From Halobacteriales archaeon YIM A00013 (lineage in GTDB: Archaea > Halobacteriota > Halobacteria > Halobacteriales > Haloarculaceae), in contig JAKCFM010000001.1 in NCBI GenBank assembly GCA_025041195.1, forward strand, positions 62,001 to 126,000: 64,000 nucleotides of DNA. The letters are read 5' to 3'. The notes below the pieces were generated by a model. The model was not told the origin of the DNA, did not search any database, and saw only the letters and a program-made list of their open reading frames with translations. Within the stretch, counting starts at the first letter, position 1, and each line of letters opens with the position of its first letter. Positions 17,523 to 17,924 of the stretch are shown here, piece by piece. The translations under genes were made by a program, and so were the position numbers.

Positions 17523-17560
17523 CTCGTAAAATTCGCTTACTGCACCGGCCGGGATTTGAA
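17523..17560. repeat. upstream copy of the tRNA-Gly 3' end (att-like direct repeat)
   Basis: This 38-bp stretch repeats 17836-17873 with one mismatch. On the minus strand it holds the last 20 nucleotides of the tRNA-Gly gene (half of the T arm and the 3' acceptor strand) plus about 18 bases of downstream flank. Duplicated tRNA 3' ends are the classical mark of integration at a tRNA gene, but here only about 275 bases separate the copies. Confidence 0.8.
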
Positions 17561-17860
17561 TTGAGTAAGACGGTCGCTCACTTCGTTCGCGCTGCGTCTT
17601 ACGTATTCAAATCCGGCTCGGCATCTCCTCACTGCGTTCGTCGATGGACTCGCCGGAATTTGAATTGAGTAAGATGGTCGCTCATTGCGCTCGCGCTGCG
17701 ATGTACGTATTCAAATCCGGCTCGGCATCTCCTCACTGCGTTCGTCGATGAACTCGCCGGTATTGAACTGAGGAAGATGGTCCTCATTGCGCTCGCACTG
17801 CGACGTATGTGCTCAAATACGGTTTAAATAGTTCACTCGCAAAATTCGCTTACTGCACCG
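17548..17860. repeat. three tandem units of 104, 104 and 105 bp next to tRNA-Gly
   Basis: The units are 17548-17651, 17652-17755 and 17756-17860; the fourth period begins inside the intact tRNA at 17861. Units 1 and 2 are nearly identical, and unit 3 is more diverged. Each of the first two contains a 70-bp imperfect palindrome (17548-17617 and 17652-17721) whose ends are T-arm-like: GCCGG-ATTTGAAT on one side and ATTCAAATCCGGC on the other. The interior carries CTCACTTCGTTCGCGCTGC-type sequence. No convincing gene is present between ftsY and the tRNA. Confidence 0.85.
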
Positions 17861-17924
17861 GCCGGGATTTGAACCCGGGCTGTGGGCTTGGAAGGCCCAA
17901 GTCCTACCACTAGACCACCGGTGC
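17854..17924 (-). tRNA. tRNA-Gly (anticodon TCC)
   Basis: The minus strand folds as a full cloverleaf: acceptor GCACCGG pairing with CCGGTGC, D arm GTC-TAGTGGTAG-GAC, anticodon stem TGGGC/GCCCA around loop CTTCCAA, giving anticodon TCC, and T stem CCGGG/CCCGG around TTCAAAT. The discriminator base is A at 17854. CCA is not encoded, as is usual in archaea. A TATA-like box lies about 31-38 bases upstream. The gene's 3' part is duplicated at 17523-17560. Confidence 0.96.

Follow-up and report, generated by a model that had tools for sequence, protein, structure and literature searches.

The closest known case for the arrays described here is that of the tyrT/tyrV repeats (rttR, tpr) of Escherichia coli, in which tandem units of 178 bp follow the tRNA gene and each unit is closed by the tRNA 3' end. 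The repeats that we read in strain K-12, annotated as rttR, we take to be these classical tyrT repeats with their processed RNA. They end in ATCCTTCCCCCACCACCA. A hairpin and a segment, GGGGAAGGAT, that inverts part of the repeated end ATCCTTCCCC lie between these ends, which gives, by eye, an order similar to the D-A-I-C-D order of haloarchaeal arrays. In this notation, D stands for the block of tRNA positions 53-73 and I for an incomplete inverted copy of this block, and the letters A and C denote hairpins. The similarity lies in the layout, read directly and not by sequence alignment, and the haloarchaeal units themselves have no Rfam match. Unlike the haloarchaeal block, that of E. coli starts later (at ATCC) and includes CCA, and because of this later start a search of the K-12 locus with positions 53-73 of tyrV returned no further copy. 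The E. coli repeats occupy one locus, annotated as a noncoding RNA and a protein, whereas the haloarchaeal family involves most tRNA isotypes, extends over a whole order and exhibits turnover of units. The origin of the tyrT repeats is an old puzzle on which the haloarchaeal arrays bear. No description of a haloarchaeal tRNA-adjacent repeat family was found in the open-access literature searched.

Several other systems share features with these arrays. Archaeal integrases use the 3' part of tRNA genes as att sites, and the block from the T-loop to N73 that recurs here falls within the region used as attB by tRNA-targeting integrative elements, which likewise leave the tRNA intact (PMC8371274). 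The haloarchaeal units are also flanked by the duplicated tRNA 3' end, but they carry neither integrase nor cargo, measure about 80-260 bp each, stand in series and contain inverted copies; no integrase lies inside or next to the array studied here, and the one candidate for a viral or plasmid mobile form was a megaplasmid carrying a whole tRNA gene. Integron cassette arrays resemble them in their serial units, with new ones apparently added mostly at one fixed end, and in their palindromic, putatively folded-strand sites with mismatches marking one strand. In contrast to integrons, the haloarchaeal units, known here from sequence alone, are gene-free, have no linked integrase and are anchored on a tRNA, and no IntI-type integrase beside an attI site was found at our array. 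As in CRISPR arrays, a repeat recurs with each unit, there is an apparent bias towards the leader end (here the tRNA end) and distal repeats are decayed; however, the repeat is the end of the host tRNA, the intervening units are related hairpins rather than unique foreign spacers, and the flanks of our array contain no cas genes. The REP, MITE and PATE palindromes of haloarchaea and bacteria are equally short, non-coding and strand-specific, whereas the arms of the haloarchaeal units copy the neighbouring tRNA, and all sampled I-C-D loci are situated behind tRNAs.

The stretch of 64,000 nucleotides analysed here (the window) contains one such array, which lies with all its parts on the minus strand behind tRNA-Gly(TCC) at 17854-17924 (ARAGORN; Rfam RF00005, 70.3 bits). 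Read in the tRNA sense, the order is D0-A-I-C-D1-A-I-C-D2-A-I-C-D3. The recurring block D0 (17854-17874), delimited by exact position and by boundary statistics, is followed by unit 1 with hairpin A (17820-17853), i.e., the 3' flank of tRNA-Gly starting with GTAAGCGAATTTTGCGAG, then by a degenerate I, the inverted T-arm copy (17811-17819), and a decayed hairpin C (17769-17810; GTCGCAG ... ACCATCT). By its position and sequence, D1 (17749-17768; GTTCAATACCGGCGAGTTCA) is a copy of a tRNA-Ala-type 3' end foreign to tRNA-Gly. In unit 2, hairpin A (17721-17748) closely matches the flank of a tRNA-Ala(CGC) unit and is succeeded by I (17709-17720; CCGGATTTGAAT), hairpin C (17666-17708) and D2 (17645-17665; ATTCAAATTCCGGCGAGTCCA), again of tRNA-Ala type, which agrees with tRNA-Ala(GGC) at 18/20 positions and with the host at 15/20. 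Unit 3 has a hairpin A of the tRNA-Ala flank type (17617-17644), an inverted T-arm copy I (17605-17616) and hairpin C (17562-17604; GTAAGACGCAGCGCGAACGAAGTGAGCGACCGTCTTAC). The array ends with D3 (17541-17561), the distal direct copy of tRNA-Gly 53-73 with one mismatch, and the start of a second copy of hairpin A (17523-17540). D0 and D3 thus belong to tRNA-Gly, while the internal junctions at D1 and D2 lack a tRNA-Gly end and carry instead a tRNA-Ala-type end with its flank, near to the tRNA-Ala(CGC) unit of the same genome.

A preliminary description of this DNA had reported that the last 20 nt of tRNA-Gly plus 18 bp of flank occur twice, 313 bp apart, around three tandem periods of 104, 104 and 105 bp, with palindromes whose ends resemble the T arm in both orientations. 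All of this was reproduced: CTCGTAAAATTCGCTTACTGCACCGGCCGGGATTTGAA (17523-17560) is found again at 17836-17873, identical at 37/38 positions and at a spacing of 313, the units between the 38-bp copies measure 104/104/105 bp, with the two distal ones 89% identical, and the palindromes are present. Elsewhere in the whole window there are no 38-mers with at least 36 matches 40-500 bp apart, which leaves the array as the one such repeat within the window and rules out a chance origin. The concern that the left tRNA fragment might be an assembly artefact was dispelled by the independently assembled sister species G001, which has a unit at the same tRNA-Gly. G001 has a single unit, homologous to unit 1 of the window, and therefore the two species differ by the Ala-type units, with the junctions in the T-loop. 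The flanking genes are ordinary chromosomal ones, i.e., prefoldin, an SRP54-type GTPase (by inference FtsY-like), a methyltransferase and a universal stress protein; there is no integrase among them and no PF00589 domain near the array. The proposal that insertion or slippage had occurred repeatedly at an att site holds in part, in so far as the T-loop-to-N73 block is similar to the attachment block of a tRNA. However, about 470 kb separate the array from the nearest integrase-domain gene of the genome, and simple slippage leaves the alternating inverted copies, the host-matched arms and the new tRNA-adjacent hairpins unexplained.

The preliminary description was right to suspect a small non-coding element family aimed at tRNA 3' ends, which we find at most isotypes and throughout Halobacteriales, so that the units are not unique to this spot, and they also differ between sister species. 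The search that it had proposed in other haloarchaea, followed by inspection of tRNA flanks, showed that many haloarchaea have such units, which were seen behind tRNA-Gly, Ala, Tyr, Glu, Lys, Leu, and Arg. Units were located downstream of 16-56% of the tRNA genes, of most isotypes, in four haloarchaeal genomes. In a tRNA-by-tRNA survey, in which copies of the own end of each tRNA were sought in its flanks, such a copy was found up to 600 nt downstream of 7/44 tRNAs in the window genome (G000), 22/42 in G026 and 10/30 in G007; none was found upstream of tRNAs in these genomes, and none (0/30) behind tRNAs of other members of the phylum outside haloarchaea. With nearly all tRNAs covered, 14/39 in G007, 22/42 in G026 and 23/41 in G192 had units, amounting to 84 units. 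A motif scan with the pattern GGATTTGAAN{34,64}GGTTCAAATCC was positive in 98 of 146 Halobacteriales genomes and in 0 of the 204 other genomes of the phylum, and the reversed control pattern had no matches. All 35 loci picked by the motif alone are situated at most about 280 nt behind a tRNA and on the same strand (one of these tRNAs, an odd tRNA-Gly according to ARAGORN, is read here as an intron-bearing tRNA-Trp). The exact 30-base core matched haloarchaeal records only, among 84,980 genomes; many of the matches are located behind a tRNA and share its orientation, and some belong to terminator-like hairpins of intergenic regions. A viral or plasmid origin was rejected, since neither the core nor the unit was found in viral contigs and phages, and the one haloarchaeal plasmid match was a megaplasmid with the unit only behind a real, whole tRNA gene. 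This 827-kb megaplasmid of Natronorubrum bangense carries tRNA-Gly(TCC) and its unit, flanked by genes for a methyltransferase and for a universal stress protein, which resemble the neighbours in the window.

The arms of the units are matched to their hosts. When matches to a true neighbouring tRNA-Phe are set aside, 53 D copies are of the host type vs. 2 of a foreign type, which is incompatible with frequent shuffling of cassettes between different tRNAs, as many foreign ends would then be expected. The I arm was uniquely the best for the host variant in 20/59 units, compared with about 1.7 (maximum 8) obtained with random tRNAs. The copies have sharp limits: the identity of D extends no more than 1 nt beyond position 53 in 43/60 cases and no more than 2 nt beyond N73 in 49/60. 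Similar C hairpins occur at different tRNAs with different arms, and the C motif AGTCGCA/ACCGTCT is conserved across tRNAs and genera. Some downstream copies, at unrelated tRNAs, contain two extra bases at a similar position of the T-loop (e.g., GGTTCACAATCC and GGATTTCTGAACC; D copies at loci L130, L157, and L160, I copies at L032 and L047). A second type of array, whose arms consist of the acceptor strand only (e.g., GGACTCGGCG ... CCCGCCGAGTCCA), was noticed at tRNA-Ala, Arg, and Gly of G026 (L116, L119, L125, L120), where the hairpins have the opposite strand polarity.

Comparison of the related genomes G007, G026 and G192 revealed the presence or absence of whole single units, with clean empty and filled sites and matching flanks, for example at tRNA-Glu(CTC), tRNA-Leu(TAA), tRNA-Ala(GGC), and tRNA-Val(CAC). 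In the 38 anchorable pairwise comparisons, which are not independent of each other, the difference was nearest the tRNA in 23 and non-proximal in 15. Intermediate D copies have on average 0.32 mismatches vs. 1.6 in the last D. Hairpins A and C vary separately, as C was kept with a new A at tRNA-Asp and tRNA-Asn, and A was kept with a new C at tRNA-Val. Some of the presence/absence cases could be due to unit loss by recombination between D copies, the direction of change being not fully polarised. At tRNA-Phe of genome G011 (L266, 1501-1569), the C segment between I and D is exactly flipped with the arms as usual, which could be a rare recombination between two T-loop copies. The tRNA-Leu and tRNA-Arg arrays of the window genome show local tandem amplification; at its tRNA-Leu(TAG) (L148), two different units alternate and the 146-bp pair is repeated about 2.6 times. 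In genome G012, tRNA-Asp appears truncated at two different points, behind position 53 in one contig and behind about position 14 in a second one (L289/L288), and both truncated copies run into the same I-C sequence. The interruption of this tRNA by a unit was set aside in view of the second truncation point, and the truncations, which would otherwise represent an interrupted tRNA, are probably an assembly or amplification artefact.

The window locus is a member of a haloarchaea-wide family of tRNA-anchored arrays. We hypothesize that in this family hairpin units are joined, at the DNA level, at the T-loop/3' end, and we assign this reading a probability of roughly 40%. Confidence is high for the description, i.e., grammar, distribution, host matching and whole-unit turnover, which was observed directly, and moderate to low for addition via a folded strand at the T-loop/3' end. 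The units, which follow the family order tRNA(D0)-A-I-C-D1-A-I-C-D2... in the tRNA sense, would behave as DNA elements. The hairpin would fold from the tRNA-sense single strand, with I and D pairing and rebuilding a duplex T-loop site, and the hairpin on top of it would contain GNA loops and tandem G.A mismatches. Joining of this folded site to the tRNA could be the work of a tyrosine-type recombinase that recognises the T-loop, comparable to the insertion of integron cassettes, or alternatively of replication template switching at the hairpin; the position of the block boundaries, at the T-loop and N73, slightly favours the recombinase. Such an addition of a new unit at the T-loop/3' end would duplicate the T-loop-to-N73 block, and therefore the tRNA would stay intact, the array would grow outward from it and old distal copies would decay. 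The two tRNA-Ala-type units of the window may have joined the tRNA-Gly array at one of its distal copies, where a foreign tRNA end would be harmless. The downstream-only copies, the distribution of the motif and its position behind tRNAs, the host matching, the sharp boundaries, the clean empty and filled sites, the proximal differences and lower decay of intermediate D copies, the similar C hairpins at different tRNAs, the DNA-like stems, the strand bias, the flipped C segment and the chimeric window array with its one-unit sister are counted in favour of this reading. Counted against it are the non-proximal differences and the possible unit losses, the rarity of foreign units, the missing linkage of a recombinase to the window array, which leaves the enzyme a candidate, and a slightly higher stability of the sense RNA, which would be expected of units with an RNA role. 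The shared C hairpins also weigh against it in one respect, since their arms fit each new host and a plain exchange of cassettes between tRNAs would not produce this.

A role exerted purely by transcribed RNA has less in its favour, and we regard it as unlikely that the units, in the manner of E. coli rttR, are small RNAs or processed 3' trailers derived from tRNA transcripts and are kept for an RNA function. The location on the same strand as the tRNA in 35/35 sampled loci, the fold energies, according to which the sense RNA is slightly more stable than the antisense RNA (24/40, P=0.008), and the similar layout of tyrT/rttR, an annotated ncRNA, would fit this explanation. However, isolated mismatches in the hairpins comprise 14 G.T vs. 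20 A.C and hence lack the G.U preference of structured RNA, while acceptor stems of tRNAs from the same, mostly haloarchaeal, set of loci contain 51 G.U vs. 1 A.C. In the stem at the AGTCGCA/ACCGTCT motif, one-sided changes are almost absent (54 two-sided vs. 1 one-sided in 336 cells, related sequences being taken as separate), which together with the low share of G.T argues against strong RNA selection. The stems therefore evolve in a DNA-like rather than RNA-like manner; the candidate of RNA-level selection, which the fold energies favour only slightly, obtained no support from the wobble statistics. The strand bias of tandem mismatches (GA 43 vs. TC 1) and of apex loops (C-GNA-G in 39/68 vs. 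C-TNC-G in 1/68), with related sequences again counted separately, suggests a folded single DNA strand. GNA loops form very stable DNA mini-hairpins, judging by the titles of two papers in the reference list of PMC6479982 (Yoshizawa 1997; Hirao 1994). Retention as RNA is further disfavoured by T-rich stretches that often directly follow the tRNA end, by the gain and loss of units between sister species and by Rfam, which at the window array returned the tRNA itself and a sub-threshold match over the tRNA but no family for the units, so that a known RNA family was rejected.

Replication template switching alone is possible but doubtful as the source of the arrays: a stalled nascent strand would snap back at A and copy D into I, and again at C and copy I into D. 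The arrays would then be small tandem inversion duplications, largely neutral and made with no dedicated enzyme. It explains the copying of I and D from the host tRNA more simply than a recombinase, and it also accounts for the D-A-I-C-D alternation, the two-sided stem changes without intermediates and the local tandem amplification in the tRNA-Leu and tRNA-Arg arrays of the window genome. On the other hand, it does not predict the abrupt ends of the copies at position 53 and N73, the restriction to haloarchaea among the tested archaea, the C motif conserved across tRNAs and genera or the proximal bias. Dispersed REP/MITE-like palindromes moved by a single-strand transposase of the HUH/IS200-IS605 type with a preference for tRNA 3' ends are a very unlikely source; the strand-specific hairpins with stable DNA loops speak for them, and the same core does occur in intergenic terminator-like hairpins off tRNAs (L044, L070, L072, L073, L080, L169), but to our knowledge such elements carry no host-matched 21-nt arms. 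It is at least as improbable that ordinary integrative elements once inserted at tRNA 3' ends and, on their deletion, left the arrays behind as scars. The T-loop-to-N73 block is within the kinds of att sites at archaeal tRNA 3' ends (PMC8371274), yet the regular two-hairpin grammar of the units, the lack of cargo or integrase remnants beside the window array, the absence of the motif from viral contigs and phages, with a single haloarchaeal megaplasmid match behind a real tRNA gene, and the involvement of about half of all tRNAs in some genomes are all at odds with scars.

The arrays suggest that DNA is added by a hitherto unrecognised route to tRNA genes, about half of which carry arrays in some haloarchaeal genomes. 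With dozens of natural host-matched sites per genome, they could help to understand how DNA joins tRNA genes and why tRNA ends draw mobile DNA. If growth at the tRNA end is true, the arrays would constitute an ordered record of insertions. As a tentative and rather doubtful extension, haloarchaea may run a genome-wide and order-wide insertion of small gene-free DNA hairpins into the T-loop/3' end of tRNA genes of most kinds, tRNA end first and with arms written from the host tRNA, i.e., a polarised tRNA-anchored array with integron- or CRISPR-like dynamics and a putative enzyme. When tRNA fragments, attachment sites or proviruses are annotated, the arrays can also be misleading.

Away from tRNAs, the C core GAGTCGCAGCGCGAACGAAGTGAGCGACCGTCTC or its close variants lie in palindromes at the six intergenic loci named above. 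Rfam searches of non-tRNA core loci returned tRNAs only. Several of these palindromes adjoin T-runs, like bidirectional terminators, and at L044 in the window genome (G000:C1:378000-379600) an apparent short CRISPR array with a repeat near GTCGCAGGACCCTAGAAACCCACAGCGGGATTGAAAC lies close to the C-core palindrome.
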